Shown: piece by piece, positions 6,468-27,100 of the stretch | Position numbering within the stretch: the stretch's first letter is position 1 | How the letters are laid out: every line of letters starts with the position of its first letter | Assembly (NCBI RefSeq): GCF_016743215.1 | Contig: NZ_VRZC01000024.1 | Coordinates: 1 to 35,028, forward strand | Length of the DNA stretch: 35,028 bases | DNA from: Geminocystis sp. GBBB08 | GTDB taxonomy: Bacteria; Cyanobacteriota; Cyanobacteriia; Cyanobacteriales; Cyanobacteriaceae | Direction of reading: 5' to 3' | Position numbers and translations under genes: made by a program | Notes under the pieces: generated by a model | The model's database searches: none | What the model was told of the DNA's origin: nothing | The model's input: the letters and a program-made list of their open reading frames with translations, nothing else

Positions 6468-8336
6468 TTAATTTTCTGTTTCAGAAATAGCATTATTTAA
6501 GTTTAATAATTGCTCTAATATATCCTCATTTTCATCAAAATTATAGGCTTTGATTACTAGCTTATCTAACTGTTGATGAAGTTGATATAATTTACCACTA
6601 GGCTCGTGAAAAAAAGCATTATATAACTGGGTAATTCCCCATTGTTTTGTCTCCATTTGTTCAGTTCTATAATTGTGTAATTCTGTCATTTTATCTCTTA
6701 TTTGTTGCACAATTTTTGATCCCTCTAAATCCTCAATAATGGCAAAGGGTTTAAACTCCTTGTTACCTATTACTCCTCCAGAATTGGAGGCGGGGAAAAG
6801 AGTTGGAAAAGGGAAAGTTTCAAAACAAGTTGTATTAGTATAACGTAAAGTTTCTCCTAAAGTTGAACTTTGAGCTTTTACCCAAATTCGATGAATTTTT
6901 GAGGTTAAAATACCTAAAATATAAAAATCATCAGAGGCAACAATGCAGTTTAAATCACCAGCTAACCATTCAGTTTTAAAAGGAATAAATATAAACCATT
7001 TAGATACTCTCGGCACAGCAAAACAAATTGATAAATTTTTAATTGCTTCTCTTAAATTAGGGCGAGGTGCGAATAATTGCCACCAAATTTCTCTCGCTCT
7101 TTTTGCTCTATTATTCAACCTTTCTGGCTTAACATTTTCTTGAATATATTGAAAAGGTAACTTATAATCACTAGCAGATTCAAGACTAAAATCATTAAAG
7201 TCAATAATCCATCTATCTGGTTTTCCATGAGGATTACTAGCTAAATTATCTCCCATGGAAAATAGTTTAATTACTTCTTTATTTTTACTATCTTTATCAA
7301 TAAATTCTTGGGCTTGTTTTTCGGTAATAATAAATCCTTTTCCTACCGGTAAAACTCCTTGAAAACAAAGATTTTTATTCATTTTTAATTTTTGAGCAAT
7401 AGTCACATCTATTTCCGAAGTGAGAGAAGAATTAATGCTTTTTACCGAATGATTATCTAAGATATACCTATCAGGAATAGTTTTACACCAGTTAACAATG
7501 CTAACATGAACCGCTGCCTCTCCAGACCATTCTTGAGTAGAAATTGCCTCATGAATATAGCCTTTATTTTGCATAATATAATCTAGGGATGCTTTGCGAC
7601 TTTTTCCTTGAGAAATAGAATTAGTAGCTACTAATCCTACTCTATCATTTTTTTCTAAATTATCGTGAGCAATTCTAAACCAATAACTGCAAAAGTCAAC
7701 AGAATCTTTCACATCTTTAAATTGAGTAAATATTTTCTCTACATAATCATCCCCTAAATTTAATCTCATGTGTTTTCCTCCTAAAAAGGGTGGGTTTCCA
7801 ATAATTGCATCGGCTTTTATCCATTCTGTAAATAAAGCATCGGTACAAATAATATTCTCATCTAAACTATCTAATGGTAACGCCGGTTCGCTTAAATTAA
7901 ACTTGTCGATCGCCACTTTTCTAGCTATCATTAAGGTAACTTTTGCTAACTCTACTGCAAAGGGGTTAACATCCATGCCATAAAACTGATTTGGAGTCAC
8001 AAAACTGATATTAATTTGTTGATTTTTACCCTTATTTTTACTCTTAATTTTGTCTAACAATAATTGCTCAATTCTCTTTAATTCTTGATAGGCAATATAG
8101 AGAAAATTACCACTACCACAGGCAGGATCTAATACTTTATATTCCTGTAATTTAAGTTGCAAATTAGTTAATTCTTTGAGAGTATTTGCACTGTCGATTA
8201 ATTCTTCCCAATACTTACTAATAGTTGGGCGCACAATTTTCATAATATCCGCCTCCGATGTGTAGTGCATTCCGTAACTATGTCTCTCTTTGGCGTTGAC
8301 TGTGCCTTCAAAAATTATACCAAAAAATAATGACAC
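6468..8336 (-). CDS. MmeI-like enzyme, methyltransferase and target-recognition part
   Basis: This is the C-terminal two thirds of the broken enzyme. It holds GMHYTSE near residue 22, SAM-binding motif I DPACGSGNF (70-78), a DVNPFAVELAK segment and the catalytic IIGNPPF motif (178-184, an NPPY-type motif for N6-adenine methylation), then a target-recognition region (about residues 290-510) and a helical tail. In MmeI-type enzymes one recognition region serves both cutting and methylation. The reading frame opens at a GTG that is an internal codon of the original gene rather than a true start, so independent translation is doubtful. If translated, it would be a methyltransferase without nuclease and might still bind DNA. 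Confidence 0.7.
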   Translation of the reverse strand: MSLFFGIIFEGTVNAKERHSYGMHYTSEADIMKIVRPTISKYWEELIDSANTLKELTNLQLKLQEYKVLDPACGSGNFLYIAYQELKRIEQLLLDKIKSKNKGKNQQINISFVTPNQFYGMDVNPFAVELAKVTLMIARKVAIDKFNLSEPALPLDSLDENIICTDALFTEWIKADAIIGNPPFLGGKHMRLNLGDDYVEKIFTQFKDVKDSVDFCSYWFRIAHDNLEKNDRVGLVATNSISQGKSRKASLDYIMQNKGYIHEAISTQEWSGEAAVHVSIVNWCKTIPDRYILDNHSVKSINSSLTSEIDVTIAQKLKMNKNLCFQGVLPVGKGFIITEKQAQEFIDKDSKNKEVIKLFSMGDNLASNPHGKPDRWIIDFNDFSLESASDYKLPFQYIQENVKPERLNNRAKRAREIWWQLFAPRPNLREAIKNLSICFAVPRVSKWFIFIPFKTEWLAGDLNCIVASDDFYILGILTSKIHRIWVKAQSSTLGETLRYTNTTCFETFPFPTLFPASNSGGVIGNKEFKPFAIIEDLEGSKIVQQIRDKMTELHNYRTEQMETKQWGITQLYNAFFHEPSGKLYQLHQQLDKLVIKAYNFDENEDILEQLLNLNNAISETEN

Positions 8337-9222
8337 GTATTTTACTCATGTTGTTCTTCAACATGGTTACCAGTATTTCAATTTCAGTTTTTGAAAACTC
8401 TATAGCTTCCACCGTAGCGAATAAACCGCCGTTAAAGTATTCTACTCCTTGATATTTTTCCGCCGGAGTAACTCCCTTATTATTCATTTCACAGAATAAA
8501 CCGCCTAAAATATCGTAATTACTACCACCTTCGAGGCATTCTTCTACACAACGGATAAACAGGTTATTGGGCAATAAACCTCTATCTTCTGCAAACATTG
8601 CTAAGACGCATTGCAAAATAAAGCGTTGAATTTTGAGGGTGTTAGAAGCTGTCAGGCTTCTAGCCTGATGCACGGAATTGAGGCGATTTTGCAGGATTTG
8701 GAATAATTCCCCTAGTCGTCTTCCGGCTTTTTCGGTAACCTCAACTTGATTGTTTTTGAAGATGGATTTTACCTCACTCCTCATCATGAAGTTAAAGGCA
8801 GATTGTCGGTGGGATAAGTCTTCTATCTTAACTATATCTACAGGTTCATCTAATTGTAAGTCAAAATCAAAAATCCAAAATTGATCAAAGTTACATAATA
8901 TCACATAGCGAGGTCGATCTGGTACAAGTCTTGACCAATATTCAAAGGCTTGGGCATAATGTTTAGATAAGTCTTCTCCTCGTTTTTTCATCTCAATTAA
9001 TAACTTAGGCTTCCAGACTAAATCGGCAAAACCACTATTTTTTTTGAGACTATCTTTTTTTATCGCTTCTTCATATTTTGCACCTGCTTCTAATGCACTA
9101 TTATAACCAAAAGCCTGAAAAAATCGATCTAGGAAAATTTGGGCTTCTTTTCTTTCTTGTCCAGTGATATTATTTTGACAAAAGTGGATAAATTTTGTGA
9201 GATTGACTAGGTTATTATCCAT
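8308..9222 (-). CDS. MmeI-like enzyme, nuclease and helical part
   Basis: This is the N-terminal third of the broken enzyme. Residues about 45-90 contain the nuclease site: GFADLVW followed by LLIEMKKRG, giving Asp67, Glu77 and Lys79 in a D-X9-E-X-K arrangement, as in the MmeI nuclease. The rest is helical (residues 90-300), including RYVILCNFDQFWIFDF and a FAEDRGLLP segment typical of the linker before the methyltransferase. It ends in off-frame residues after KNNMSKIR. The true ATG overlaps by one base the TAA of the upstream small membrane-protein gene, pointing to translational coupling. A free nuclease domain without recognition or protective methylation would be harmful or inactive; inactivity is more likely. 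Confidence 0.7.
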   Translation of the reverse strand: MDNNLVNLTKFIHFCQNNITGQERKEAQIFLDRFFQAFGYNSALEAGAKYEEAIKKDSLKKNSGFADLVWKPKLLIEMKKRGEDLSKHYAQAFEYWSRLVPDRPRYVILCNFDQFWIFDFDLQLDEPVDIVKIEDLSHRQSAFNFMMRSEVKSIFKNNQVEVTEKAGRRLGELFQILQNRLNSVHQARSLTASNTLKIQRFILQCVLAMFAEDRGLLPNNLFIRCVEECLEGGSNYDILGGLFCEMNNKGVTPAEKYQGVEYFNGGLFATVEAIEFSKTEIEILVTMLKNNMSKIRVIIFWYNF

Positions 9223-12578: not shown

Positions 12579-13026
12579 CGACCATTTACTTTAACCGGAA
12601 TATGAGGAAAAAATTAATCGATGGCATCTTGGATTAATTTTCATGATTTTAAGTAAATTAATTTTCACGGGAAGCAAACCACCCTCCTAAATACCTCAGT
12701 TAGATGTCAGAAACCTTTAAAAATAAGGGTTTAAGAGTCTTAGTTGACGAAATTTTACCCACCTAAAAGAATTAAGTTTAGTAAATAATTGTCGAAAATG
12801 AATTTTAATAATGTTTAAGTCTATTCTCTCCTAGTCGAATAGTCCCCTAGTCCTCTAGTCTCATCTTCACCGATAATTTTATGTCGAACTCAGGTGATAA
12901 CGAGTTGATTAGGACGTTTTGAGATTCCTCTGGTTATCTCGGAATGACAACTATAGATTTTGAGAATGTCTTAACTAACCCGTTTATTGCTATCTGAAAA
13001 CAGCTGTATAAGAGAGGTTAAGGGGA
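12579..13026. other. Spacer between clpB and P450 gene
   Basis: No gene is seen in these 448 bases. They hold a hairpin just after clpB (12610-12641) and a short run of related CTAGTC words near 12830-12863 that looks like a decayed tandem repeat. The two flanking genes converge, so terminators are expected here. Nothing else is recognisable. Confidence 0.5.
12610..12641 (+). terminator. Hairpin downstream of clpB
   Basis: AAAATTAATC (12610-12619) and GATTAATTTT (12632-12641) are a perfect 10-base inverted repeat around a 12-base loop, 31 bases after the clpB stop. The stem is almost all A/T and there is no long U tract, so it is a poor classical terminator. It may instead mark or protect the 3' end. 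Confidence 0.35.
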
Positions 13027-14244
13027 TTAAGGTGACAAAAAAGTTAATGGTAAACTTTTCAAACCTCTTAAAGTAATGCTTTCTCGCCAATCTAATTTTT
13101 CTGTCGCTAATTGTAGATGAGGTAATCTTTCTAGTAAAATCTTAATGGCTATTTGTCCTTGTAATCTAGCTAAAAAAACTCCTAAACAAAAATGAATACC
13201 ACCACCAAAAGGAAGATTATAGTTAACACGTTCAAAATTGAGAATATCAGGTTGGAAGAATTTTTCTGAATCTCGATTAGCTGCCCCTAAACACAAAATT
13301 ACTTTATCTCCTTTTTTGATATTTTTACCTTTGATAACAACATCTTCTTGTGCGATACGAGCTATAACTTGCACAGGAGTGTCATAACGTAATAGTTCTT
13401 CTACTGCTTCTTTAATAATATGAGGTTTATTTTTGAGTTCTTCAAATTTTTCGGGTTGTTGTAATAATGCTAACATTCCATTACCAATAAAACTTTTAGT
13501 AGTTTCTTGTCCTACTATTAAAAGCATGATACAAAAGCCTAAAATTTCATCTTCCGTTAATTGATTATGTTCATTTTTTGCTTTCATTAATTGACTTATT
13601 AATCCTTCATATTGGGGAGAATTTTCTATTTTCGCCATAAAATCTAATAAGTAATTTCTTGTTTCTATAGCTATTTCATTTTGTCTTTGATAACCTTCTA
13701 AAGACATCGGTTGATCAAAAACGAAAAATAAATCGTAGGACCAACGAATTAAGTTATCATAATCTTCAAGGGGTAAACCCAAAATTTGAGTAACAGTAAT
13801 AGCAGGAAGTGGACTAGCTAAGTCTTTAATTAAATCTATTTTTCCAGTATCGATAACTTTATCTAACAATTCATTCACTGTTTTCTTGATTTTTTCTTCC
13901 ATTATTTCCACAGCATGAGGAGAGAATACTTTACTGACTAATCCTCTTAATCTAGTATGATCTGGGACTTTTTGAAAGAATAACCATTTATCGATAGTTG
14001 TGGCTAAAGTTGATAAATCTCCTCCTTGAAGATAAATATTTTTCCCTTCTAAACGCATCGGTAAATCATCTACCTGAAAACGATTATCTTTGAGTATTTT
14101 ATCCACATCTTCATAACGAGTAATTACCCAAGCATGAAGAAAACTCCAATGTATAGGATCTTCTTCTCTTAATTTATCATAGGTAGCATAAGGATTTTGA
14201 TGAAATTCAGAGGAAAAAGGATTAAATAATTTATTTTTGCCCAT
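13027..14244 (-). CDS. Cytochrome P450, bacterial class I type
   Basis: This is a soluble heme monooxygenase. Numbered from the ATG at 14244 (405 residues, chosen over an in-frame TTG two codons upstream), the landmarks are DHTRLRGLV near residue 95, I-helix GQETT (245-249, where most enzymes have a Gly/Ala-Gly-x-Asp/Glu-Thr oxygen-activation motif), ExxR as ELLR (283-286) and heme ligand Cys353 in FGGGIHFCLG. It resembles the CYP107-type group that hydroxylates carrier-bound or polyketide substrates. The start overlaps the end of the upstream FAAL-ACP gene, so the two are translationally coupled, and an acyl chain on the ACP is the likeliest substrate. No ferredoxin or reductase gene is adjacent; electrons probably come from photosynthetic ferredoxin. 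Confidence 0.9.
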   Translation of the reverse strand: MGKNKLFNPFSSEFHQNPYATYDKLREEDPIHWSFLHAWVITRYEDVDKILKDNRFQVDDLPMRLEGKNIYLQGGDLSTLATTIDKWLFFQKVPDHTRLRGLVSKVFSPHAVEIMEEKIKKTVNELLDKVIDTGKIDLIKDLASPLPAITVTQILGLPLEDYDNLIRWSYDLFFVFDQPMSLEGYQRQNEIAIETRNYLLDFMAKIENSPQYEGLISQLMKAKNEHNQLTEDEILGFCIMLLIVGQETTKSFIGNGMLALLQQPEKFEELKNKPHIIKEAVEELLRYDTPVQVIARIAQEDVVIKGKNIKKGDKVILCLGAANRDSEKFFQPDILNFERVNYNLPFGGGIHFCLGVFLARLQGQIAIKILLERLPHLQLATEKLDWRESITLRGLKSLPLTFLSP

Positions 14245-16237
14245 TTTCAAACTCTTTCCATAAATACTCAGTTAATTCTTCAATATCTGTATATTCCCAA
14301 AATAAAGTTGCTTCTAATTCAAGATTTAACAATGTAGATAATTCTCCTGTTAAAGTTAAAGCTACTGATGAATCTAAACCGTATTGACTAAAAGAAGTTT
14401 CTGTATCTAAATCTTCTTCTTCTAAGGCTAAAACAGTGGCTAATTTTTTGATTAACCAAGTAGTAATTGTCTCTTTATCCGTGATGATAATATTTGCTGT
14501 CATGGAATCTTTTAATGATGATTTTTGTTGCCATTGTGCCACTAAATTAAGACTTTCTTCTAAAAAACTTTGACGACAAGTATAACGTTGTATTTTCCCG
14601 CTAGAGGTTTTCGGAATACTAGCTGGTTTAATCAATGCGATCGCCTCAATTTGTAATTCATGTTTAAGGGAAACGGCTTCTTTAATGGCTGAAACAACCT
14701 CATCAACATCTAATTTACTCACATAAGTACGTTTAATTTCTTGAACAATTACTAATTTTTCTTGATTATCTTTTTCGATAGTAAAAGCAGCACCACTATC
14801 TCGACGTAAAGCCTGATGACTGTTTTGCACAGTATATTCAATATCTTGAGGATAATGATTTTTCCCTCGTATAATAATTAAATCTTTTTCTCTCCCCGTA
14901 ATAAATAATTCACCTTGTCGCAAAAAGCCTAAATCTCCTGTCCGCAAAAAATGAGGTAATTCTGTATTAACTAATGTTGCTTTAAAGGTATCATGAGAAA
15001 TTTCTGGTTTTCGCCAATAACCTTCAGCGATGCTTTTACCAGAAACCCATATTTCACCGATATGATTATCGTCACAAACAACTTTAGTTATGGGATTAAC
15101 TATCTTAATATCTGTGTCTTGCGATGAATGTCCACAACCAACCAATTGCTTGATATTTTTGGTATTTTCATCTATTTTGCAGACTAAATTTTCTCTTAAT
15201 TTATCCCCATCCACGTCTAAATAAACCGCTTGTTTTTCTAATTCACCTCCAGAAATCATTAAAGTTGCTTCTGCCATGCCATAGCAAGGATAAAAATAAT
15301 TAGCCTTAAAACCACAAGAAGTAAATTTACTGATAAAATTATCGATCGTGCTACGTCTAACCGGTTCTGAACCATTATAAGCACTTAGCCAACTACTTAA
15401 ATCTAAATTTTCTAGTTGCTTATAAGTAATCTTTTCAACACATAATTCATAAGCGAAATTTGGTCCTCCACTATGAGTAGCACGGTAGTCAGAAATAGCT
15501 TGTAACCAACGAATCGGCTTTTGTAAAAAGGCTTCAGGAGACATAATCACCCCTAAAAAACCAGTATAAAGAGGTTGAAGAATACCATCTATTAAACCCA
15601 TATCATGAAAACTCGGCAACCAACTCACAGAAATACTATCTTCTGTCAATTGAAAAGCCTTTTGAATATAAGCTACATTATGTAAAATATTATTATGAGT
15701 AATTTTAACTCCTTTCGGATTTCCTGTAGATCCCGATGTATATTGTAAAAATGCGATGGTTTCTTCTGTTATTTTTCCCGTCTCATTTTCATTTATTGGT
15801 AATATTTTCGTTAAATTATCAGTAGCAAGAAATTGTATTTTTTTGTTATTTATAACATCTGCTAATTTTTCTTTTACCTTGTCTAAAAGTGAGTTAGTAG
15901 TTAAGATTAAATCTGGTTGACAATCTTGGATAATTGCTTCTAATCTTGACATTTTTTGATTTCCTTTAGGGGGATAAGCTGGAACTGCTATAATACCACT
16001 TTCAAGACATCCTAAAAAAGCAGCAATAAAATCTAAACCTTGAGGATAAATTAATAATGCCCTTGATGGAGTAATAGTGATAGACTTTAGTTGGGAAGCA
16101 ATAGATAATGATTTATTTCGTAATTTTCTATAGGTAATTATTTCCTTGTGATTTTCACCATCTTTCAAAAAGATATAAGCTAATTTATCAGGTTTTTTCT
16201 TAGCTATATAGCTTAATATTTGTAGAAAGTTATTCAT
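14231..16237 (-). CDS. Fatty acyl-AMP ligase fused to acyl carrier protein
   Basis: The first 560-odd residues are an adenylate-forming ligase of the FAAL class: P-loop LQYTSGSTGNPKG (164-176), the FAAL-like start YRKLRNKSLSIASQL, LPSFHDMGLIDGILQPLY, YGMAEATLM and GREKDLIIIRGKNHYPQDIE. FAALs activate free fatty acids with ATP and pass them to a carrier protein instead of CoA. Residues about 580-668 are that carrier, with YGLDSS placing the phosphopantetheine on Ser623. Product: an acyl chain tethered to the enzyme. The following P450 gene overlaps by 14 bases. In known systems such loading modules feed a PKS or NRPS, but none is present within this window, so the fate of the acyl group is open. 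A short helical PCP-like fold and normal lengths suggest it is intact. Confidence 0.92.
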   Translation of the reverse strand: MNNFLQILSYIAKKKPDKLAYIFLKDGENHKEIITYRKLRNKSLSIASQLKSITITPSRALLIYPQGLDFIAAFLGCLESGIIAVPAYPPKGNQKMSRLEAIIQDCQPDLILTTNSLLDKVKEKLADVINNKKIQFLATDNLTKILPINENETGKITEETIAFLQYTSGSTGNPKGVKITHNNILHNVAYIQKAFQLTEDSISVSWLPSFHDMGLIDGILQPLYTGFLGVIMSPEAFLQKPIRWLQAISDYRATHSGGPNFAYELCVEKITYKQLENLDLSSWLSAYNGSEPVRRSTIDNFISKFTSCGFKANYFYPCYGMAEATLMISGGELEKQAVYLDVDGDKLRENLVCKIDENTKNIKQLVGCGHSSQDTDIKIVNPITKVVCDDNHIGEIWVSGKSIAEGYWRKPEISHDTFKATLVNTELPHFLRTGDLGFLRQGELFITGREKDLIIIRGKNHYPQDIEYTVQNSHQALRRDSGAAFTIEKDNQEKLVIVQEIKRTYVSKLDVDEVVSAIKEAVSLKHELQIEAIALIKPASIPKTSSGKIQRYTCRQSFLEESLNLVAQWQQKSSLKDSMTANIIITDKETITTWLIKKLATVLALEEEDLDTETSFSQYGLDSSVALTLTGELSTLLNLELEATLFWEYTDIEELTEYLWKEFENGQK

Positions 16238-16352
16238 TGAATTAAGATAAAAGTCAAATCTAGTAAACTAGGAAAGCATTTAAGTTGTCTGGGAAAGAAA
16301 GGGGAAAGGGAATAGGGAATAGTTAAGAATTTGAGTCAACGCAAGGGGTAAC

Positions 16353-16373
16353 AACAGGGCGTTTTCATTCTCG
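16353..16373 (-). repeat. Exact 21-base match to 33214-33234
   Basis: The reverse complement of this segment (starting CGAGAATGAAAACGCCCTG) occurs exactly at 33214-33234, in another intergenic region about 17 kb away. A 21-base exact match with several G/C bases is not expected by chance in this AT-rich DNA. It is probably a fragment of a genome-wide non-coding repeat. Confidence 0.6.
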
Positions 16374-16564
16374 GGAAAGAAAAAAGAGGGGGGGATCAGG
16401 AGAGGTCTTCTAACAGAATAAAGTCTAGCACAAAAAGAAGTAATAATTGCCACAAAATCTTGCATTAAATCATCTTTTCTTTTTTCAGCTAAATTAACTA
16501 CTACTTCTATATTTAGGTTCTTTTTACACTTTTATCTTTACCGCTTGAGATGGACAATCAATTG

Positions 16565-16593
16565 TTGCTCTCAATGCTTATTTACTCTATTAT
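16565..16593 (+). promoter_or_regulatory. Possible promoter of the glycan operon
   Basis: TTGCTC (16565-16570), a 17-base spacer and TATTAT (16588-16593) lie 36 bases before the first ATG of the run of plus-strand genes. Position and spacing fit a sigma-70 promoter, but the match to consensus is moderate. Confidence 0.35.
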
Positions 16594-16629
16594 GACTCTA
16601 GAATTAATACCGTATCACAAAAAATTTTA

Positions 16630-17007
16630 ATGAAGATGTCTAGTCTTAATCTATTTAATGTTTCCCTGATCATTCTCAGTATTATTTGTTCATCTACAGC
16701 CCAAATCATGCTTAAAATAGGCACTAATAGAATTGGCAATCAAATTAGTAATATTGTAGATTTTTTCCTGAAAGCGGCTTCTACTCCTCAAATTATAGCA
16801 GGAGTTTCTCTCCATGTTGGTGCATTGCTTTTTTGGTTACTCGCTTTAAGAAGGGTTGATGTTAGCTATGCTTATCCTTTTATTTCTCTGGGATTTGTTT
16901 TTGTTATGTTTATGTCTGCTATTTGGTTACGGGAAACCGTGAGTCTGGATAGAATTATCGGCGTGATTTTAATTCTAATGGGTATTATTTATGTTGCCCG
17001 TAGTTAA
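16630..17007 (+). CDS. Small EamA/SMR-type membrane transporter (ArnE-like)
   Basis: This 125-residue protein has four hydrophobic helices (about 9-29, 53-73, 80-100, 106-122), the layout of the small multidrug-resistance and EamA half-transporters. The helix-1 glutamate that drives drug/proton exchange in EmrE is absent; the corresponding stretch is TAQIMLKIG with Gln25. That places it with the ArnE/ArnF-like group thought to flip undecaprenyl-linked sugars. The segment RVDVSYAYPFISLGFVFV and the closing GVILILMGIIYV are typical. Its stop shares a base with the start of the next gene (TAATG), so it leads an operon with an oxidoreductase and glycosyltransferases, which supports a lipid-linked sugar role. 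A two-gene heterodimer partner is not present nearby. Confidence 0.8.
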   Translation: MKMSSLNLFNVSLIILSIICSSTAQIMLKIGTNRIGNQISNIVDFFLKAASTPQIIAGVSLHVGALLFWLLALRRVDVSYAYPFISLGFVFVMFMSAIWLRETVSLDRIIGVILILMGIIYVARS

Positions 17008-18158
17008 TGATGATTGATGAAAATAACAGAATGACAGATTTAACTCAATATGATGCGGTAGTAATTGGAGGCGGTTTTTTTGGTTGTCAGTTATCCATCT
17101 ATCTGAAACAATATCTTAACTCAGTTTTAATTATTGAAAGGGAATCAGACTTATTACAACGTGCCTCTTATAATAACCAAGCGAGGGTTCATAATGGCTA
17201 TCACTACCCTAGAAGTATTTTAACTGCTTTGCGTTCTCGTATTAGTTTTCCCCGTTTTGTTGAAGAATATCGAGAATGTATTGATAGTGATTTTGTTAAA
17301 TACTATGCCATCGGTAAAATTTTTTCTAAAGTCAATGCTAATCAATTTAAACTATTCTGCGATCGCATTCAAGCCCCCATTGAAAAAGCCGATTTAACCA
17401 TTAAAAAATTATTTAATCCTAGTTTAATTGAAGAAGTCTTTTTAACCCAAGAATATGCTTTTGATGCTGTTAAACTCAAGGAAAGAGTATATTTTGACTT
17501 AGAAAAAGCAAAGATAAATTTACGATTAAATAGTGAAGTAATAAAACTTAAAAGAAATGAAAATAATGAATTAATTGAAGTATTTTATCAAGAAAAAAAA
17601 CAAAATAATTATTTGGAACAAATAACCACTAAATATTTATTTAATTGTACCTATTCAGGCATAAATAATATTTTATCCGCATCAGAATTACCTACCATTC
17701 CCTTAAAACACGAATTGACAGAAATGGCATTAGTAGAAGTGCCTGATATTATTAAAGATATAGGAATTACCGTCATGTGTGGACCATTTTTTTCCATCAT
17801 GCCTTTCCCCTCCCGTCACTTACATAGTCTTTCTCATGTGCGATATACCCCCCATTGTTACTGGCAAAACTCGGGAAATTATAGCCAAAATACAGATAAA
17901 ATTTTTGAATATAGTATAAAAAAAAGTAACTATGCTTATATGATTAGGGATGCCAGTCGTTATATGCCATTGTTAGAAAACTCTCAATATCGAGACTCCC
18001 TCTGGGAAGTGAAAACCATATTACCACAAAGTGAAATCGATGACAGTCGCCCGATTTTATTCAAAAAACATCAAGGATTACAAAATTTAACTTGTATATT
18101 AGGAGGAAAAATTGATAATGTGTATGATATTCCCGCTCAACTTGATTTTTTAAATTAA
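17007..18158 (+). CDS. FAD-dependent oxidoreductase (DAO fold)
   Basis: The N-terminus has a dinucleotide-binding fold: DAVVIGGGFFGCQLSIYL (16-33) with GGGFFG at 21-26, and LIIERE with Glu44 to hold the FAD ribose. The next segment, ASYNNQARVHNGYHYPRS, matches the position where DAO-family enzymes (glycine oxidase, glycerol-3-phosphate dehydrogenase) contact the flavin. The C-terminal half ends in a glycine-containing FAD motif (LGGKIDNVYDIP). The substrate is unknown; given its neighbours a sugar alcohol, an amino sugar or a lipid-linked intermediate is possible. The start overlaps the preceding stop by one base and the glycosyltransferase begins 10 bases after its stop. Met9 is an alternative start. 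The fold is secure, the substrate is not. Confidence 0.8.
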   Translation: MMIDENNRMTDLTQYDAVVIGGGFFGCQLSIYLKQYLNSVLIIERESDLLQRASYNNQARVHNGYHYPRSILTALRSRISFPRFVEEYRECIDSDFVKYYAIGKIFSKVNANQFKLFCDRIQAPIEKADLTIKKLFNPSLIEEVFLTQEYAFDAVKLKERVYFDLEKAKINLRLNSEVIKLKRNENNELIEVFYQEKKQNNYLEQITTKYLFNCTYSGINNILSASELPTIPLKHELTEMALVEVPDIIKDIGITVMCGPFFSIMPFPSRHLHSLSHVRYTPHCYWQNSGNYSQNTDKIFEYSIKKSNYAYMIRDASRYMPLLENSQYRDSLWEVKTILPQSEIDDSRPILFKKHQGLQNLTCILGGKIDNVYDIPAQLDFLN

Positions 18159-18168
18159 AGTATCCTCT

Positions 18169-19173
18169 ATGGCTGTTTCCGAATGCTTTATTTCCGTAAT
18201 TGCCCCAGTATATAACGATAGTAAAATTATTGAATCCTTTATCGCTGAAGTTATCCCCTTATTACGACAAAATTATAGTAACTATGAATTAGTTATCGTT
18301 AATGACGACTCGGAAGACAACACCTTTGAAATCGTTACATCATTACTCAAAGAATATGAATGTATTAGAGTAATTAGCCTTTCCAAACACTTCGGCACAG
18401 AAATTGCCATTTCATCAGGGTTAGATTCTGTCATCGGCGATTTTGTAGTTGTATTATTACCGGCATCCGATCCCACCCATCTGATTCCCGAATTAGTAGA
18501 AAAGTGTCGTCAAGGTACAGATATATTAATAGGAATCAAAAAAAACCGTCAAGATGAGCCTTTATGGATGAAAATAGGTGCTAATTTATTTTACTGGTTA
18601 TGCACAAAAATTCTCAAAATTCTTCTCACAAAAAACGCCACAGAATTTAGAGTTTTAAGCCGTCAAGCAATTAATGCCTTATTGCAAGTAGAAGATAAAT
18701 ATCGTTATCTAAGACTTTTAAGTAACTATATAGGATATAAAAGCAATACCTTTATTTATGAACCCATTAAAAGATATAAAAAAATAAAAAATCGAGGATT
18801 ATGGGAATCAATTTATTTAGGATTAAGACTGATTTTTCTTAACTCCGCCCATCCCCTTCGATTTGCTAGTTATTTAAGTTTAGGTGCTAGTTTTTTTAAC
18901 CTTTTATACATGGTTTATATTGCTGGTGTTTATCTGATTAAAGATAAAGTTGTGGAAGGTTGGGTGACACTTTCTTTACAAAATAGTGTGATGTTTTTTT
19001 TCATATCTGTTATATTAGCCATTTTATGCGAATATATTGGTTTAATTCTGAGTAAATCAAGAGGTTGGTCAGCTTATTATATCTTAGAAGAAAAAACAAG
19101 TTCTGTGTTAGTTTCTCAAGAAGAAAGACCAAATATTGTACAAGAATCAAAGGAGATAAAACTTTCAAATTAA
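18169..19173 (+). CDS. GT2 glycosyltransferase, membrane-anchored, altered DXD site
   Basis: This protein resembles dolichyl/polyprenyl-phosphate sugar synthases of the GtrB/ArnC type. Residues 6-50 give the GT-A start (ISVIAPVYNDSKI, then LVIVNDDSEDNT), LSKHFGTEIAISSGLD follows, and FRVLSRQAINAL lies near residue 155. Two membrane helices end the protein (about 232-257 and 268-293), as in GtrB. The usual metal-binding DADLQDP element is replaced by LLPASDP at residues 96-102, so the canonical Asp-x-Asp is lost. The transferase may use a different coordination, have an unusual donor, or be inactive. It follows the oxidoreductase by 10 bases. A flippase-like gene two genes upstream fits a polyprenyl-phosphate sugar made inside and flipped out. 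Confidence 0.8.
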   Translation: MAVSECFISVIAPVYNDSKIIESFIAEVIPLLRQNYSNYELVIVNDDSEDNTFEIVTSLLKEYECIRVISLSKHFGTEIAISSGLDSVIGDFVVVLLPASDPTHLIPELVEKCRQGTDILIGIKKNRQDEPLWMKIGANLFYWLCTKILKILLTKNATEFRVLSRQAINALLQVEDKYRYLRLLSNYIGYKSNTFIYEPIKRYKKIKNRGLWESIYLGLRLIFLNSAHPLRFASYLSLGASFFNLLYMVYIAGVYLIKDKVVEGWVTLSLQNSVMFFFISVILAILCEYIGLILSKSRGWSAYYILEEKTSSVLVSQEERPNIVQESKEIKLSN

Positions 19174-19210
19174 GCTAACATAGTAATGTTTTAAATTATA
19201 ATTTAAGATC

Positions 19211-19477
19211 ATGAATTTTTATACAATAGTTATTAGAAAAAGTCAAAAATATTGGATTTCACTTTGTTTATAAAATGGTTTAGTAGTACAAGAAGAAACT
19301 GACGAAAAAGTCGTTGAAAAACTTTTAGAGGCGATCGCTTCTTTTTCTGCTATTTATGAATTAGAAAAAAATGTTTATTCTCAACCTATTGCTATTGAGG
19401 AATTGCATGAATTTTTAACAATAGAAGAACAAGAAGAAAAAACAGATATTTATGAATTAAAAAAAGTCTATGCCTAA
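19211..19477 (+). pseudogene. hicB: HicB-like antitoxin, broken by an in-frame stop
   Basis: Reading from ATG 19211 gives MNFYTIVIRKSQKYWISLCL and then TAA at 19271-19273, after which the same frame continues without a break for 67 codons (starting NGLVVQEETDEKVVEKLLEA) to TAA at 19475-19477. This is the HicB antitoxin shape: a short beta-strand start, SLCLxNGLV, a helix of Glu/Lys repeats, then a C-terminal PIAIEELHEFL stretch seen in cyanobacterial HicB proteins. In family members the position of the stop is usually Glu (GAA to TAA needs one change). The total would be 88 codons plus stop. It overlaps the hicA relic by eight bases, the usual overlap of paired genes. As is, antitoxin cannot be made. 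Confidence 0.75.
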
Positions 19478-19680
19478 AAATATACCCTCTTTAAAACCAA
19501 AAGAACTGATTAAAATTTTAGAAAAGGCAGGATGTAAATATTATCGAGAGGGAAAAGGGGATCATCGTTTATATGTTCGTGAATTTCAAAGTCAAAAAAG
19601 AATTGTCTCCTCCCTATGTTTTAAGAATTTTTCGACAATTTGGTTTTACAGATGATGAAATTGAAACCTTAATAAAATAA
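19470..19680 (+). pseudogene. hicA: HicA-like toxin, frameshifted by an internal deletion
   Basis: The first 45 codons (MPKNIPSLKPKELIKILEKA, then GDHRLYVREF) are a HicA toxin, an mRNA interferase with a double-stranded-RNA-binding fold; the catalytic His lies in GDHRLY. After KRIV the frame leaves the family. From about 19602 another frame resumes the HicA C-terminus: ELSPPYVLRIFRQFGFTDDE, then IETLIK and stop at 19680. In the family the two parts are separated by about ten residues (KRIVPIDMGAKEL-like), and both KRIV and KELS can be written with the bases AAAGAATTGT. A deletion between two such short direct repeats therefore explains both the missing residues and the shift. The toxin is dead, consistent with the dead antitoxin. 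Confidence 0.75.
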
Positions 19681-19687
19681 GAAAAAT

Positions 19688-20497
19688 ATGACTAATAATC
19701 AAAACGATTTAAACTTCCATAATTGGCAATTACCAAATTATTTAACCAGTGAAATTGCTCAAAAAAAAAGTAAATATTGTGTCTGTATTTTTGTGATTAA
19801 TGAAGGAGAAAAAATCCAAAAACAATTACAAAAAATGCAAGATATTTCCCAAAATATTGATATTATTATTGCCGATGGTGGTAGTACAGATGATTCTTTG
19901 AATCTTGATTTTCTGAAAAATGTTCATATAAGAACATTATTAACCAAGCAAGACAGGGGAAAGTTAAGTACACAGATGCGTATGGCGTTTGCTTATGCTT
20001 TAATGGAAGGTTATGAGGGAATTATCACTATTGATGGTAACAACAAGGATGACCCTAGTGCAATCCCTATGTTTGTCGAAGCCTTAGAGCAAGGATATGA
20101 TCATATTCAAGGCTCAAGGTTTATACCTGGAGGAAAAGCCATTAATACTCCTTGGGCGAGATATTGGGCGGTGAGGTTGATTCATGCACCTTTAATTAGT
20201 CTTGCTAGTGGTTTTAAATACACAGATACAACGAATGGTTTTCGTGGCTATAGTCGTCAATTTTTACTCGATGAAAAAGTTGCCCCTTTTAGGGATGTTT
20301 TTTCCGCTTATGAATTACACTATTATTTAGCGATTCGATCAGTAAAATTAGGTTATAAAGTAAAAGAATTACCTGTTACTAGAGCATATCCCAATCAAGG
20401 ACCTACTCCCACAAAAATTTCGCCTATTAAGGGTAATTTAATTGTTTTATTAACTCTATTTAAAGCCTGTTTACATCAATTTAATCTTAAAAAATAA
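19688..20497 (+). CDS. GT2 glycosyltransferase, polyprenyl-phosphate type
   Basis: A 269-residue GT-A enzyme lacking membrane helices of the GtrB type. Visible elements are CVCIFVINEGEKI (31-43), IIIADGGSTDDS (59-70), a TIDGNNKDDPSAI segment at 114-126 in place of the usual DADLQDP, QGSRFIPGGKA, and a TDTTNGFRGYSRQFLL motif like that of dolichol-phosphate mannose synthases. The metal site here is DGN rather than DXD, a variation I recall from some O-antigen-related bacterial transferases. Its start is eight bases after the end of the hicA relic. The relic pair lies between it and the first glycosyltransferase, so the glycan operon seems to have been interrupted by the toxin-antitoxin insertion. 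Acceptor and donor are not deducible. Confidence 0.85.
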   Translation: MTNNQNDLNFHNWQLPNYLTSEIAQKKSKYCVCIFVINEGEKIQKQLQKMQDISQNIDIIIADGGSTDDSLNLDFLKNVHIRTLLTKQDRGKLSTQMRMAFAYALMEGYEGIITIDGNNKDDPSAIPMFVEALEQGYDHIQGSRFIPGGKAINTPWARYWAVRLIHAPLISLASGFKYTDTTNGFRGYSRQFLLDEKVAPFRDVFSAYELHYYLAIRSVKLGYKVKELPVTRAYPNQGPTPTKISPIKGNLIVLLTLFKACLHQFNLKK

Positions 20498-20532
20498 TTA
20501 TAAAACTAATTAATAAATAACTAAAAATAAAT

Positions 20533-21300
20533 ATGAAAAAAGCTATTATTGGTTATACTGGATTTGTAGGAAATAATGTGATTTCTCAAACATATTTTGA
20601 TGATTTTTATAACTCTAAAAATATTGAATCTATCAAAGGGAAAAAATATGATTTAGTTGTTTGTGCCGGAACTCCTGCCGTTAAATGGTTGGCAAATAAA
20701 GAACCTATTAAAGATAAAGAAAACCTAAAATTTTTAATGGATTGTTTATCAGAATTATCAACCAATAAACTAATTTTAATTTCTACTGTTGACGTTTATC
20801 CTAATCCCATCAATGTAGATGAAGATACAATTATTGATGAGAAAATTTTACAACCTTATGGCAAACATCGTCTTGAATTAGAAAATTTTGTTAGAGATAA
20901 ATTTGATAGTTTAATTATTCGTTTACCCGGTTTATTTGGTAAAGGTTTGAAAAAAAATATTATCTATGATTTTATGAATGATAATATCGGTGATTGGATT
21001 AACAAAGATAGTGTTTTTCAATTCTATAATTTAGCTAATCTTTGGCAGGATATTGCGATCGCCCTTGATCATAATTTAGAATTAATTAACTTTGCCACTG
21101 AACCTATAAGCGTTGCCGAAGTAGCAAAAGAAGCCTTTGGATTGAAATTTAATCATACTCCAGAAACCAATCCCGCTTACTATGATATGCAAACTAAATA
21201 TGCAGATTTATTTAATCACAATAATCTTAAATATTTATCTACCAAATCTCAGACTCTTGAAGAAATTAAAGACTTTATAAGTAGTCAAAATTTAAAATAA
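20533..21300 (+). CDS. NAD(P)-dependent epimerase/dehydratase-like SDR protein
   Basis: An extended short-chain dehydrogenase fold of 255 residues. Nucleotide-binding GYTGFVG is at 7-13, an LVVCAGTPAVKW segment at 41-52, ISTVDVYPNP at 83-92 supplies the Ser/Thr of the active site, and PYGKHRLELE at 108-117 supplies the Tyr. In the classical YxxxK site the lysine four residues after Tyr109 is here Arg113, though a lysine stands at 111. LIIRLPGLFGKGLK matches the sugar-epimerase core. It probably modifies a nucleotide sugar or acts as a reductase in the operon; the altered site makes classical epimerase chemistry uncertain. It lies 35 bases after one transferase gene and 12 before the membrane protein gene. 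Confidence 0.75.
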   Translation: MKKAIIGYTGFVGNNVISQTYFDDFYNSKNIESIKGKKYDLVVCAGTPAVKWLANKEPIKDKENLKFLMDCLSELSTNKLILISTVDVYPNPINVDEDTIIDEKILQPYGKHRLELENFVRDKFDSLIIRLPGLFGKGLKKNIIYDFMNDNIGDWINKDSVFQFYNLANLWQDIAIALDHNLELINFATEPISVAEVAKEAFGLKFNHTPETNPAYYDMQTKYADLFNHNNLKYLSTKSQTLEEIKDFISSQNLK

Positions 21301-21312
21301 AAAATATAAGAT

Positions 21313-23280
21313 ATGAATAAATTTATTAAAGATATTAACATTAAGCAATATCTAATTATTAGCATTAGTTTAATAATTCCTTTTCTTGTTTATAGCAGTA
21401 TTTTAATGATTGATTTACCGAACAATATAGGAGAATTAATTAGACATGAAGTGTCTTGGTTATTAATCATTTTTGCTGGGTTATTATATCTCAGTTATAG
21501 CTTGAAAGGATGGTTAGGAATATCTCTAAACTTAACTACCACTTTAGCATTATTTGCTTTACCTCTTGCTAGATTGTGGAGTACTGGTGTAAGTGAATCT
21601 TTCCTTTTAGCTGGTTTATTTCCCTGGAGTGATGCCAATAGTTATTACAGGCATACTAAAAATATTTTACAAGGATTAACCATGATAAATAGTGTTCACA
21701 ATTCCAGACCTATGTTTGTGGGATGGTTGTCATTTTTGTTAAAATTAACCGAGCAAAATTTACAGATTACCATTGGTATAATAACAGTCTTAATTGCCAT
21801 TGCCTGTTTCTTTTTGAGTGAAGAAATTAAGGAAATATACGGAAAAATGGCGGCGATTTTAACCGTTATTTGCTTATTCATTTATATTAGACCTTTAATC
21901 GGTTCTTTGATGACAGAAAATATTGGTTTATGTCTAGGAATCTTGAGTTTTGCCCTTTTATTAAGAGGTGCAAGACAAATGAATATGAATATAACTTTAT
22001 TAGGTATCTTCATTTTAACCATTGCCCTGAATGCTCGTGTTGGCACGTTTTTTGTGTTGCCAAGTCTCTTACTATGGGGAAGTTATCTTTTTCGCACCTC
22101 AAAATTATTTTCAGAAAAATTTTTTGGTTGGGGAATTGTGGTTATCTTACTCGGTTTTATTCTTAATTCTCTTTTATTAAAAATAATTGGACATCCTGAA
22201 ACTAGCTCATCCTACGGTAATTTTGCCATTATGTTTTATGGAGTGATTACCGAAACAAATTGGACTCAAATTTATCAAGATTATCCGGAAATTAATCAAT
22301 TAAAAGGTGCAGAATTTAGTGAGAAAACAAATCAAATTCTTTGGCAAACAATCATTAATAATCCTACCGATTCAGTGAAAGGTATTATTAAACAATGGAC
22401 TAATTTTTTTACAAATCAATATAAATCTATTTTTTTTATTGAGAGAAACAGTTTAGAATTAATTTTGAGATTTTTAGGAGTTATTGGTTTAATATTCAGT
22501 TTATTAAATTTCAAAAGAAATCCTGTATCTTCTTTAATCTTGTTTTATTTTTTAGGAGTTTTTGCCTCAATTCCCTTTGCACCTATTCAAGATGGAGGGT
22601 TAAGAGTTTATGCCGCAACTATTGTTATTTTTCCTATTTTATCCGCTATAGGATTGTATTTACTTATATATATATATAATTCTTTTATTGTTCGTTATAT
22701 TGACAATATTATACTTAAAAATAATTATCTTAATTCTAAGTTAAAACCATTATTTTTTTGTCATAATTCATCAGACAATTCATTAAATAAATTATGGATT
22801 AATCAAGACTTTGTTTTACCAACATTAAGTTTAGCATTAGTAATTATTAGTTTTTTTGCCCCTATTTTTATTAAACAAATTAATGCGATCGCACATAATT
22901 CTCAACTATTTTGCCCTGTAGGTTTAGAGAGTGCTTATTTTAGTTATAATTCGGGCTCGTATATTAATTTAGTTAGTGATGATGCCAGGGAAAATAGTCA
23001 TTTACCGAATCTTAGAGTTAGTGATTTTCGGGAGGGTTTAAAAACTTTTGCCCCCTGGTTAACAGATGAGCCAAAAGCCTTAGCCACATTAAATGAAAAT
23101 ATAACTATAGTTGATATAACGATATTTAATATTTTTGGAAGTGAGTTTTTAATAATGCCATCAGAATTACTACCTGAAAAAAAAGGGAAAATTTTTGTTT
23201 GTGGCAAAAGAGAAAGTATTGGACAGTTAAATTTATTTTATGGGAAGAATTTAAAGTCTATTTCCTCTAAAATAGATTAA
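21313..23280 (+). CDS. Large polytopic membrane protein, GT-C glycosyltransferase-like
   Basis: Residues 1-480 contain about ten hydrophobic helices with short loops. One further helix (about 499-520, LPTLSLALVIISFFAPIFI) is followed by a soluble domain of about 135 residues that would be periplasmic. The first outside loop has SDANSYYRHTKNILQG and then NSRPMFVGWLSFLL, a pattern seen in GT-C type glycosyltransferases and related PMT/Wzy-like proteins that use polyprenyl-linked sugars, where an acidic residue in the first loop is catalytic. I do not recognise a named family. The context (flippase-like, two polyprenyl-type transferases) fits a transferase that uses the exported lipid-linked sugar outside the membrane. 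A very short spacer (12 bases) follows the SDR gene. Confidence 0.6.
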   Translation: MNKFIKDINIKQYLIISISLIIPFLVYSSILMIDLPNNIGELIRHEVSWLLIIFAGLLYLSYSLKGWLGISLNLTTTLALFALPLARLWSTGVSESFLLAGLFPWSDANSYYRHTKNILQGLTMINSVHNSRPMFVGWLSFLLKLTEQNLQITIGIITVLIAIACFFLSEEIKEIYGKMAAILTVICLFIYIRPLIGSLMTENIGLCLGILSFALLLRGARQMNMNITLLGIFILTIALNARVGTFFVLPSLLLWGSYLFRTSKLFSEKFFGWGIVVILLGFILNSLLLKIIGHPETSSSYGNFAIMFYGVITETNWTQIYQDYPEINQLKGAEFSEKTNQILWQTIINNPTDSVKGIIKQWTNFFTNQYKSIFFIERNSLELILRFLGVIGLIFSLLNFKRNPVSSLILFYFLGVFASIPFAPIQDGGLRVYAATIVIFPILSAIGLYLLIYIYNSFIVRYIDNIILKNNYLNSKLKPLFFCHNSSDNSLNKLWINQDFVLPTLSLALVIISFFAPIFIKQINAIAHNSQLFCPVGLESAYFSYNSGSYINLVSDDARENSHLPNLRVSDFREGLKTFAPWLTDEPKALATLNENITIVDITIFNIFGSEFLIMPSELLPEKKGKIFVCGKRESIGQLNLFYGKNLKSISSKID

Positions 23281-23314
23281 TCATTAAAGATTAATTATAC
23301 AATTGATTAAGATT

Positions 23315-24130
23315 ATGAAAATTGCAATTTCTAACATCGCATGGCAACTAGAAGAAGAAGAAATCATTGCTAATATTATGCAAGATTTAAACATCAAAGG
23401 AGTGGAAATAGCCCCGACAAAAATATGGGAGCAACCTCTTTGCCCTACGGATGATGAAATCAAATCTTATCGAAATTTTTGGAATAGTAAAAACATCGAA
23501 ATTGTTTCCCTTCAAGCCCTTTTATTTGGGAGAAATGATCTAACTATTTTTGATGATCAAAATACCAGACAAGCAACTCTTAATTATCTCAAAGAAATGA
23601 TGAATTTAGGAAGTAAATTAGGGGCGAGAGTGTTAGTTTTTGGCTCTCCTAAAAATAGAAATATTGGTAACTTAAAAGTAGAAGAAGCTCAAATAATCGC
23701 TCAAGACTTTTTTTATCAATTAGGAGAATTTGCCTTAAAAAAAGGAGTTATTTTCTGCATTGAACCGAATCCCACTATCTACAACTGTAATTTTGTGATT
23801 AATAGTCAACAAGGTTTAGAATTAGTCACAAAGGTTAATAGTGATGGTTTTGGATTGCATTTAGACAGTGCTGGTATGACGTTAAGTGAGGAAAATATTA
23901 AACCAGCTTTGACAAATGCTATTGATAAGTTATGCCATTTTCACATGAGTGAGCCTTATTTAGGCCAAGTGGGAGATAATCAAGTTAATCATCTCATTTT
24001 TGCCCAAACTTTACGGAGTCTTAATTATCAGCATTGGGTATCCATTGAAATGAAAACTCAACATCCGGCTGATAATGTTTCTGCGGTGACTAAGGCTTTA
24101 AAAAGTGCGATTAAGCATTACAGAAAATAA
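23315..24130 (+). CDS. Sugar phosphate isomerase/epimerase-like TIM barrel
   Basis: This 271-residue protein of the AP-endonuclease 2 / xylose-isomerase-like barrel family begins at ATG 23315 (MKIAISNIAWQLEEEE); an in-frame TTG four codons upstream is less likely. Typical barrel features are IKGVEIAPTKIW near residue 32, RVLVFGSPKNRNIG, FCIEPNPTIYNCNFV with the metal-ligand Glu, FGLHLDSAGM with a metal-ligand Asp/His pair, LCHFHMSEPYLG and WVSIEMK near the end. The positions of Glu, Asp, His and Glu fit the divalent metal site of the family. The substrate is probably a sugar or sugar phosphate that belongs to the upstream glycan genes. It closes the plus-strand run and is convergent with the tubulin-like gene (28 bases between stops). 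Confidence 0.8.
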   Translation: MKIAISNIAWQLEEEEIIANIMQDLNIKGVEIAPTKIWEQPLCPTDDEIKSYRNFWNSKNIEIVSLQALLFGRNDLTIFDDQNTRQATLNYLKEMMNLGSKLGARVLVFGSPKNRNIGNLKVEEAQIIAQDFFYQLGEFALKKGVIFCIEPNPTIYNCNFVINSQQGLELVTKVNSDGFGLHLDSAGMTLSEENIKPALTNAIDKLCHFHMSEPYLGQVGDNQVNHLIFAQTLRSLNYQHWVSIEMKTQHPADNVSAVTKALKSAIKHYRK

Positions 24131-24158: not shown

Positions 24159-27100
24159 TTATAAACCGCTAATAAATTTTTTAGCTTTTTTAAATTCATC
24201 GTCATCTAACATTCCTTTTTCATACCATTGCATTAATTGAAGTATTGTTATACCTTCCCATTTCTTGCGAAATTCTTGATCATTTTCTTCTATAACTTTA
24301 GTTAAGTTACCATATAAAGGCTCAGAAATTACATTTGCTTCTAAAACATCATTATTATTATGTTGATTATTAGTTCTTTTTCCATTATTATTATCATTAT
24401 TTTCTGAAGTTAATAATTGTTTTTTCTTGTGACTATTTCCTGATAATAATTTAGGATTTTGATTGACATTTTCTCTTTGTTGTGCATCATTGACAATTGC
24501 TACAAATCGATCATATATTCTTTTTAATAGTCCATCTTTACCTAAGGAAGTTCGATCAGCTTTTTCTCCTAAAACCAGTTTTTTCTGATTAAAATTAATA
24601 TCATATTCCGTTAATTTTTCTAATTCATCGACAAAATTTATGAGAGTGGGATAATAAATTTCTTGGAATAAATGAGGATTTTCTTTTACTTCTTCCTCGA
24701 TATTTTTTACACTATCTATTAAGTAATTTTTGATAGTTTCATTTTGACTAATAGTTTCCAAACTTTCCTCCCAAATACCACTAATTTCAACTTGATAAAA
24801 TTCACCTCTAAATTTATCTTCTAATTGTAAATAGTAGTTATTATTATGATTTGTTTTTTGGATTTTTCCAAAAGCTAAACAGGTATAAAAATTATCCTGC
24901 AATAATTCCATATCTCGCCCTTCTGGAGGAATTATATCTAAAAAGAAAACTTGAGAATCATTATGTAGATTATAACCATCATAGAGGCGTTTTTGTCGAT
25001 CATACTGTTCTCTTAATTCCTTTAAACCATTAACAATACGCAAAGGAAAACCAGCAAATTCTTTGATAATAACTATCTCATTTTTCGTTTGCAAAGGAAT
25101 AATTACATCAGAATTAATGCCAATGCTTTGAGTAATTAAGTCTCGAAATTGTTTATTTTCTCTATCATCAGTTTGTTTAAAACCGATAATTTGTTTGGTT
25201 TTATCAGCATCATTAACAAAGTAAGGGGCGTTACTATTTAAAGGTAATAAAACATCTCCTTCATCGATAATTTGTTTAAGGCGAGTTTGCCCATCAGAAA
25301 AAGGATATTTTTGGATAAAACGATTGACTACTGACTCGGTTAAATCAAAAGTTTTATCGCCGAATTTTGCCTCTATATTAGCGTCAATGGTTTTACTTAA
25401 TTCTTGATTATCAATGATTCTTTCTGCTGTAAAAAAGTACAATAAAGACGTTGGTAAAGTAGCACTTTCATTAATTTTATGACTCACTTCTACTAATAAA
25501 TTTTTTCTTTCTCGATCAGGCAACAAAGTTTGATAATATTGATCATTATCATCAGCTTCAAAAATAGCTTCTCCATTAATTTCATCATCATCAATGTGAC
25601 TTAAATCTTCTCCTTTACGGTTATAAAATCCTTCTAAATCTTGCAGGAGATTATAAAAATTACTTGCCTGAATTTTTAAATGTTGTACTAATTGTAATAA
25701 GTTATTAGCTATTTTAAGAGCTTCATCGGTTAAAGTTAAATCAAAGTTACGTTGAATTAGTTTATTCACCTCTTGGATACTTTGACTGGCTTCCTCTTGA
25801 AATTCTTTATTTTTAGTATTATTTGATTTGCCACCGATGCCTAAAAAACGCTTTTTATCAGTTTCAATATCTTCAAATATTTGACAAGAATCTTGCCATT
25901 TTTTATCGACATTTTCAACGGTAATAAAGGCAGTTGCTTTCTGTTTCTCTTCTTCTAATTCTCTGGCATATTCATTCAATTTAGTTAATAATGCTTCTAG
26001 CCAACCTCGACTATTATCTAAGGCAAAATGAGGATGAGAAGGCTCAAGTAAAATTGCTAAATAGTCTATAATATCCTGATTGAATTGTTTTTCTAATTTT
26101 TGACTATTTTTTTGTAATTGAGTTAACCATGCACCCCTAATATTTTCCGTTTCTCCGGGTTGCACTTTTTTAAATTGACTTTTTAACTCACTACGCATTT
26201 TATCAATAAATCTTTGTCTATCTTCGGCATTTTTACAGTTATCAATCTCTCCTTGATTTTTACTTAGCCAATTTTTTAGTATTTGTTTAAACGTCTTATC
26301 ATTTTCTTGGGTGATTGCCTCTAATCTAGCTTTAAAAATATTTCTAGTATCTTCATTTTTTGACTGCCAATTTAATAAAAATTTATCTAACAATTCTCTC
26401 GAATCTGGGCTTTGCCCTTCTCCATATAACCAAAAGTTAAGTAATTTGATTTGGACTTTATTTAAACAGATAGCAATAGTTAAATCTCGAGGGAAATAAA
26501 TTTTTGATAATCCAAAGGTTAAATATCTTTGGGCATTGGGGCGAGGATGTTCATCATAAACGCTAAAATATTTTTTAACATTATCTCGATGGCCTTTAAT
26601 ATTAATGGATATTTCTTCAGCAAAATCAGCGAATATTTTATGAGCAATTACTTGAGATAACTTATCTTTTTTAACTATTTTATGCCCACTATTAGTACGA
26701 TTTCCGATTAAATAAACAAAATCAAAAGGAGGGCGATTTTCGTTAACAGAAAATAAATTGACAGGATCATAAACAGCATTAAATGTTGTGCCTTGAGCGG
26801 TATAATAATTTAATTCTTTTAAAGCGGCATAGGTATTAGCTTTAACACTAGCCGTATTGCCGTATAATTCCGGTGCAATAATCAGATAAGCGGTTATTTC
26901 GCTATCAATTTCATAACCGTATTTCTCTCTTAAACTATAAGCTATATCAATATATGTACCACTTCCGGTACCACCACATAGCGAACCGACAATGATAATA
27001 TTCGTACCTGAATCGACTACAATATTTTTATTGAGTAGCTTTTGTGCGTGACCAACTGTAGCATTATCCGCAGTATCAATGGCATTTTGAATTTTGCTAT

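Follow-up and report, generated by a model that had tools for sequence, protein, structure and literature searches.

A FAAL-ACP and cytochrome P450 gene pair of Geminocystis sp. GBBB08 is probably one half of a polyketide/lipid pathway split within its genome

The window analyzed here, 35,028 bp long, is the entire contig C166 of the 325-contig, 4.1-Mb draft genome of Geminocystis sp. GBBB08. On its reverse strand lies a gene for a fatty acyl-AMP ligase (FAAL) fused to an acyl carrier protein (ACP), followed by a cytochrome P450 gene (Table 1); this pair is the subject of the present analysis. An earlier, sequence-only reading of the same DNA had described a ligase-ACP fusion overlapping a P450 gene by 14 bases, which the open reading frames (ORFs) and Pfam domains confirm for a P450 start at the ATG at 14244; from the TTG at 14250, the overlap is 20 bases. 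FAAL models are the top single-enzyme NCBIfam matches of the ligase, although none reaches its cut-off (the fatty acyl-AMP ligase model PRK05850 matches with E 1e-140, below the model's cut-off). Its closest solved structures are chains named "Polyketide synthase" (9e-179) together with FAALs, and FAALs fill the list of PDB matches. Judged by its adenylation domain, the predicted ligase belongs to the FAAL branch. The ACP domain contains a GLDSS motif, which we take to hold the serine that carries the phosphopantetheine.

To place the pair among its relatives, the P450 was searched against 388 sampled genomes from the class and 388 from the order. The class search returned 45 genomes (own included), from which 20 regions were fetched, including all with at least 44% identity; the order search returned 20 genomes (own included) and 15 new regions, giving 35 fetched relatives in total. 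Of these, 27 have a P450 with 44% or more identity to that of the window. In 23 of the 27, a ketosynthase (KS) gene follows on the same strand at a distance of no more than 6 kb, and the remaining four reach a contig end 220-2045 bp past the P450, so that a KS follows in all 23 relatives with more than 2.1 kb of downstream DNA. A FAAL gene is present within 8 kb upstream in 22 of the 27, and both neighbors, in the order FAAL, P450, KS, in 20. The eight fetched genomes with less similar P450s (below 44%) display a KS in no case and a FAAL in two, six having neither. In a wider scan of genome contigs, of which the best 80 of 550 candidate P450 loci were kept, a FAAL was found in 13 and a KS in 7 of the 80; the loci among these with neither have P450 identities of 36-44%. 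The sequence-only reading had taken the pair for a possible minimal acyl-hydroxylation system and held that homologous pairs always lying beside polyketide synthase (PKS) or nonribosomal peptide synthetase (NRPS) genes would speak against this; to a large extent, that is the arrangement found, with a KS downstream in every testable relative of at least 44% P450 identity.

The two closest relatives have the same predicted four-gene order. In the closest, L244, the order is FAAL-ACP, P450 (71% identical), a gene that we call X, KS (66% identical to the KS on contig C54 of the Geminocystis genome), ACP, and a thioesterase (TE)-like part; in L245, it is FAAL-ACP, a TauD-like dioxygenase, P450 (65%), X, and KS-ACP-TE-like. 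Among the window's nearest kin, most have such short KS-ACP-TE proteins (in L040, KS-ACP without TE), while in some relatives the KS is part of a full modular PKS, such as the KS-acyltransferase (AT)-dehydratase-ketoreductase of L046. The matching KS-ACP-TE, absent from the contig of the pair, is present on C54, and the first half of X on C95. C54:24-2885 encodes a 953-residue KS-ACP-TE protein with no AT match, whose start is 23 bases from the contig edge. It is one of four KS matches in the genome, the others being a 2943-residue FAAL/KS protein on contig C33, which appears olefin-synthase-like by its layout, and two short ones. The C54 KS retains C160, H295, K330, and H335, all in invariant alignment columns and presumably the catalytic residues. 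In the class-wide search, 15 other genomes match it at 1e-130, and in the first five of these the KS is beside the P450.

X was found once in the genome, as its first 231 residues running off the edge of C95, in an orientation that would lead into C54. Over 193 codons it is 59% identical to the X of L244, and it is 42% identical to that of L245. Searches of Pfam and the PDB gave no match, and only a weak match to coenzyme F390 synthetase was obtained (1.6e-05, below cut-off). This match and its motifs, which we assume to be those of ligases, point to X as a ligase-like protein, the second in the operon. X and KS may well be adjacent in this genome across the assembly gap.

In a careful KS tree of 37 rows, made without duplicates of the same locus (five given loci have no KS), the C54 protein is sister to L244 (100/100), followed by L245 (99/94). 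Quick trees place the window P450 (99) and the window FAAL (98) each as sister to its counterpart in L244. The P450 tree puts the window in a clade with 100% support and 11 other members, of which 10 have a neighboring KS and the last runs into a contig end. The first P450 and FAAL trees were made without L244 and L245, and from the first FAAL tree matches shorter than 400 residues dropped out, L045 included; the final trees include L244-L251 and leave aside duplicates and three distant ligases of the own genome. Divergence from L244 is also alike for all four genes, the synonymous divergence (dS) being 1.19 for the P450, 0.97 for the FAAL, 1.05 for the KS, and 0.90 for X, at ratios of nonsynonymous to synonymous divergence (dN/dS) of about 0.18-0.31. 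This pattern is as would be expected if the four genes shared one history under constraint.

From these sister positions, the like divergence, and the conserved gene order, we propose, with a probability of roughly three in four, that this genome has a four-gene polyketide/lipid pathway divided between loci, of which the pair forms the half responsible for loading and oxidation. The FAAL would convert a fatty acid to the acyl-AMP and load it onto its own ACP, and the P450 would oxidize the chain while it is bound there. The C54 protein would then take over the oxidized acyl group and extend or condense the chain, with X probably activating a second carboxylate for this synthase, and the thioesterase-like domain of C54, with a Cys for the usual Ser, would free the product. 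Each chemical step in this scheme, like the fatty acid, the site of oxidation, and the role of X, is inferred.

Several observations weigh against this proposal. FAAL/P450, X, and KS are not contiguous, C54 and C95 both ending at the decisive point, so that a joint function across loci is an interpretation, and with the X protein of L245 as query, 254 residues went unmatched in the genome. In the FAAL tree, L245 falls with L246 (93) and not beside the window and L244. The model operon itself (L244:4288-11682) is broken, with a FAAL ORF that lacks its start and part of the ACP, an in-frame stop in X, and a change of frame in the PKS; it is either decaying or badly sequenced. The TE of C54 scores 21 bits, below the Pfam cut-off, that of L244 and L245 has no Pfam match and rests on likeness to C54, and the TE part changes faster (dN/dS about 0.27-0.35). 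Finally, 9 of the 15 KS proteins from the class-wide search are known to lie beside a P450, the other six having been viewed only 1.5 kb to either side.

The C54 protein also lacks the extender-loading AT that modules of FAAL-initiated type I PKSs have. The AT region is missing from L041-L043 as well as from C54, and in L044 and L045 a remnant is found with GYGTG and GNGTG where we would expect the AT active-site motif GHSxG. AT matches in the own genome number only two, the 2943-residue C33 protein and a 287-residue frame on contig C111 that is FabD-like by size. With no AT in the C54 protein, extension would therefore depend on an AT acting in trans, unless the KS has another function. In the TE-like part of L244, L245, and C54, CGD replaces the usual SxG and is followed by a conserved His. 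The AT has been lost in the window's subclade, whose nearest members acquired X and the Cys-type TE, and this raises the question of what the KS condenses. A tentative answer, to which we give perhaps a minor chance, is that the KS joins the oxidized acyl-ACP not to malonyl units but to another carboxylate, which X would have activated, with release by the Cys-type thioesterase; a new lipid class would then be made from two loci, with two ligases and no AT.

On the P450 itself, the best solved matches are P450BioI (1.5e-81) and PksS (5.8e-81). P450BioI (CYP107H1), which is 43% identical over 383 positions, acts on ACP-linked acyl chains and cleaves them at C7-C8, according to sections of PMC10741444. 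Only 7 of its 30 mapped ligand contacts are identical in the window P450, and 2 of the 30 align with gaps; one further listed contact was excluded since its residue number was inconsistent. An overall identity of 43% combined with so few shared contacts suggests the same mode of substrate presentation with another substrate or another position. Together with the gene order kept in relatives, the likeness to an acyl-ACP enzyme favors the earlier suggestion that the P450 acts on the tethered chain, and oxidation of an acyl chain on the ACP is likely, albeit unproven. A BioI-like cleavage yielding a pimeloyl precursor of biotin is also suggested by this match, but we consider it very improbable given the divergent contacts, the KS neighbors in relatives, and the lack of the P450 at orthologue level in all four congeners. 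No biotin genes were found beside the P450 among the window proteins scanned, the rest of the genome not having been searched for them.

Indeed, the pair and the KS are absent from all four congeners (the P450 by protein search, the pair region and the KS by DNA search), and because P450 and KS were not found there, the FAAL/P450/KS system is accessory. FAAL protein matches in two of the congeners sit in frames of about 2850 residues that resemble the C33 protein. With neither pair nor KS in the congeners, the ancestral site and the adjacency of C95 and C54 are not readable from their synteny; the neighbors of ClpB differ in all four.

The absence of other synthase genes near the pair, on which the idea of a minimal two-gene system was built, applies to the 35-kb contig. 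Besides the pair, the window has 23 ORFs of at least 100 residues; a Pfam scan of 22 of them, the exception being a 111-residue ORF nested in another gene, revealed no KS, TE, NRPS, or PKS-type AT. Since the window is one whole draft contig, "nothing nearby" is a local statement, limited to C166. We regard as unlikely a true stand-alone acyl hydroxylation in which a housekeeping enzyme releases a hydroxy or unsaturated acyl-ACP and the C54 KS is unrelated. It would fit the PKS-free contig, the purifying selection on FAAL-ACP and P450 despite their separation from the KS (dN/dS about 0.18-0.26), and the existence of PKS-free FAAL/P450 loci in other genomes; against it stand the KS in 23 of 23 testable close relatives and the position of the C54 KS and the C95 X as closest kin of the neighbors in the L244 operon. 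With these partners elsewhere in the genome, a minimal two-gene system is not supported here.

PKS-free FAAL/P450 systems, as envisaged by the sequence-only reading, do exist, though only in other genomes and in the company of an MBOAT protein. L058:7522-15056, of the same family, encodes FAAL, ACP, P450, a second FAAL, MBOAT, and a 322-residue protein; L084:3725-9874, which is L253 reversed and comes from a Crocosphaera metagenome-assembled genome, encodes FAAL, P450, ACP, MBOAT, and a 391-residue protein. The terminal proteins have no family match and show GTSR and a late D..H, which we take as SGNH-like; the predicted structure of the one from L084 has a mean pLDDT of 38 and was not used for a fold search. 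These loci come closest to the imagined stand-alone acyl-oxidation system and possibly perform a Dlt-like transfer of the oxidized acyl group. Like the Dlt system, with its ligase, carrier, DltB MBOAT, and DltD, they place FAAL, ACP, and P450 beside an MBOAT, but their MBOATs match the DltB model below its cut-off (1.4e-34 for L058 and 3.8e-55 for L084/L253). An MBOAT partner for the window pair was considered and rejected, as the window's genome encodes none. Among the more distant P450 relatives, L120, L121, L133, L135, and L150 (36-38% identity; three Nocardia, Amycolatopsis, and Pseudofrankia) are followed at about 2 kb by a FAAL gene, with no KS match in the locus. L252:719-11012 combines a P450 (44%) with an ACP, has no FAAL or KS in 13 kb, and includes a sulfotransferase (Pfam) and a look-alike second copy as neighbors.

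How the pair came to be separated may be read from its flanks. Repeats lie on both sides, at 12692-12993 and 16405-16512, the latter with one other copy in the genome among the matches listed. The second of the two adjoining elements downstream of the P450 lies 33 bp from the gene, at the site occupied by a KS or X gene in relatives. A repeat-mediated rearrangement is the simple reading of the split. No repeat was found that the pair's surroundings share with those of the C54 and C95 genes, the sole cross-match being 28 bases to a different part of the window. The same multi-copy repeats exactly at that point, together with the position of both X and KS at contig edges, could also mean that X and KS truly follow the P450 and that the assembly was misjoined 33 bp past it. 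This is improbable: ahead of X on C95 come 133 bp and then a divergent ComEC-type competence gene (C95:828-2984), not the P450, so that two contigs would need an error.

On the other side, as the earlier reading had noted, the pair diverges from a glycan operon (16630-24130) across a common 392-bp spacer. Its seven proteins are a small EamA-like membrane protein, an FAD oxidoreductase, two GT2 proteins, one TIM-barrel epimerase-like protein, and two without a Pfam match. That the pair supplies this operon with an acyl group is scarcely credible. Besides the spacer, a DAGAT/PlsC-type acyltransferase encoded on this contig at a distance of 9 kb past the operon could be cited in favor, but none of the seven proteins has a match in the 115 loci of P450 relatives (tblastn, E 1e-5), no acyltransferase is among the five of them that match Pfam, the genome has no MBOAT, and a promoter scan of the spacer gave nothing above shuffled sequences. 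We therefore reject the proposed link, and the conservation of the pair beside the same glycan genes, suggested as a check, is found in none of these loci.

Elsewhere in the window, the DAGAT/PlsC-type gene (33416-34231) scores above both Pfam cut-offs and is 17 kb from the pair. An MmeI-type restriction-modification gene (6468-9222) is split into two overlapping ORFs, one with the N part and helical spacer and the other with the methyltransferase and target recognition parts. An ammonium transporter (31225-32946) has a C-terminal HAMP-like match just below cut-off, and a 1130-residue protein (24159-27551) contains a Tubulin_2 (tubulin-like) domain. An Rfam scan of the window gave no match.

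Table 1. Positions of the gene pair, its domains, and the flanking elements in the window.
Feature	Position	Strand	Basis
FAAL-ACP fusion gene	14231-16237	-	668 aa; Pfam, NCBIfam, and solved-structure matches
AMP-binding (adenylation) domain of FAAL	15014-16204	-	Pfam PF00501, aa 12-408, E 1.3e-62
DIP2-like C-terminal domain of FAAL	14537-14884	-	Pfam PF23024, aa 452-567, E 4.2e-14
Acyl carrier protein domain (PP-binding) fused to FAAL	14261-14458	-	Pfam PF00550, aa 594-659, E 8.7e-13
Cytochrome P450 gene	13027-14244	-	405 aa; Pfam p450, E 5.3e-26
Interspersed repeat	12692-12895	.	at least 23 further own-genome rows among the matches listed, up to 98% identical
Second interspersed repeat	12896-12993	.	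at least 14 further own-genome rows among the matches listed, up to 100% identical
Spacer common to the pair and the divergent glycan operon	16238-16629	.	392 bp

In the literature on cyanobacterial FAALs with P450s, lists of FAALs, MBOAT with FAAL, and P450BioI, a search mostly outside subscription journals, we found no FAAL/P450/KS operon in the texts available, and the combination of MBOAT and FAAL brought up no paper at all. The word "P450" is absent from the main text of a 2025 FAAL review. Polyyne clusters combine FAAL, ACP, and desaturases, and sections of PMC8406139 describe a P450 gene in place of the TE and rubredoxin genes in 10 actinobacterial genomes. They share with the window pair a FAAL, an ACP, and oxidizing enzymes; the pair differs in that its proposed partner, the KS-ACP-TE protein, is encoded on another contig, and no desaturase was found beside the FAAL-ACP among the window proteins scanned with Pfam.

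A further parallel is offered by FAAL-initiated cyanobacterial pathways of the jamaicamide and columbamide/microginin/chlorosphaerolactylate type. There, as described in parts of PMC11837247 and PMC8406957, an ACP is charged with a fatty acid by a FAAL, the ACP-bound chain is a known or presumed substrate of a desaturase or halogenase, and a type I PKS comes next. FAAL loading of an ACP, tailoring on the carrier, and a PKS would be common to both, all three steps being proposed for the window; the window system differs in its P450 tailoring, its KS without AT, and its split genes. It is a variant of the FAAL-initiated PKS starter modules, and it illustrates that a pair standing alone on its contig can make up half of a pathway scattered over the genome. 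Because 20 of the 27 relatives with at least 44% P450 identity have the order FAAL, P450, KS, oxidation of a FAAL-loaded chain by a P450 before a PKS extends it may be a starter module that recurs in cyanobacteria.

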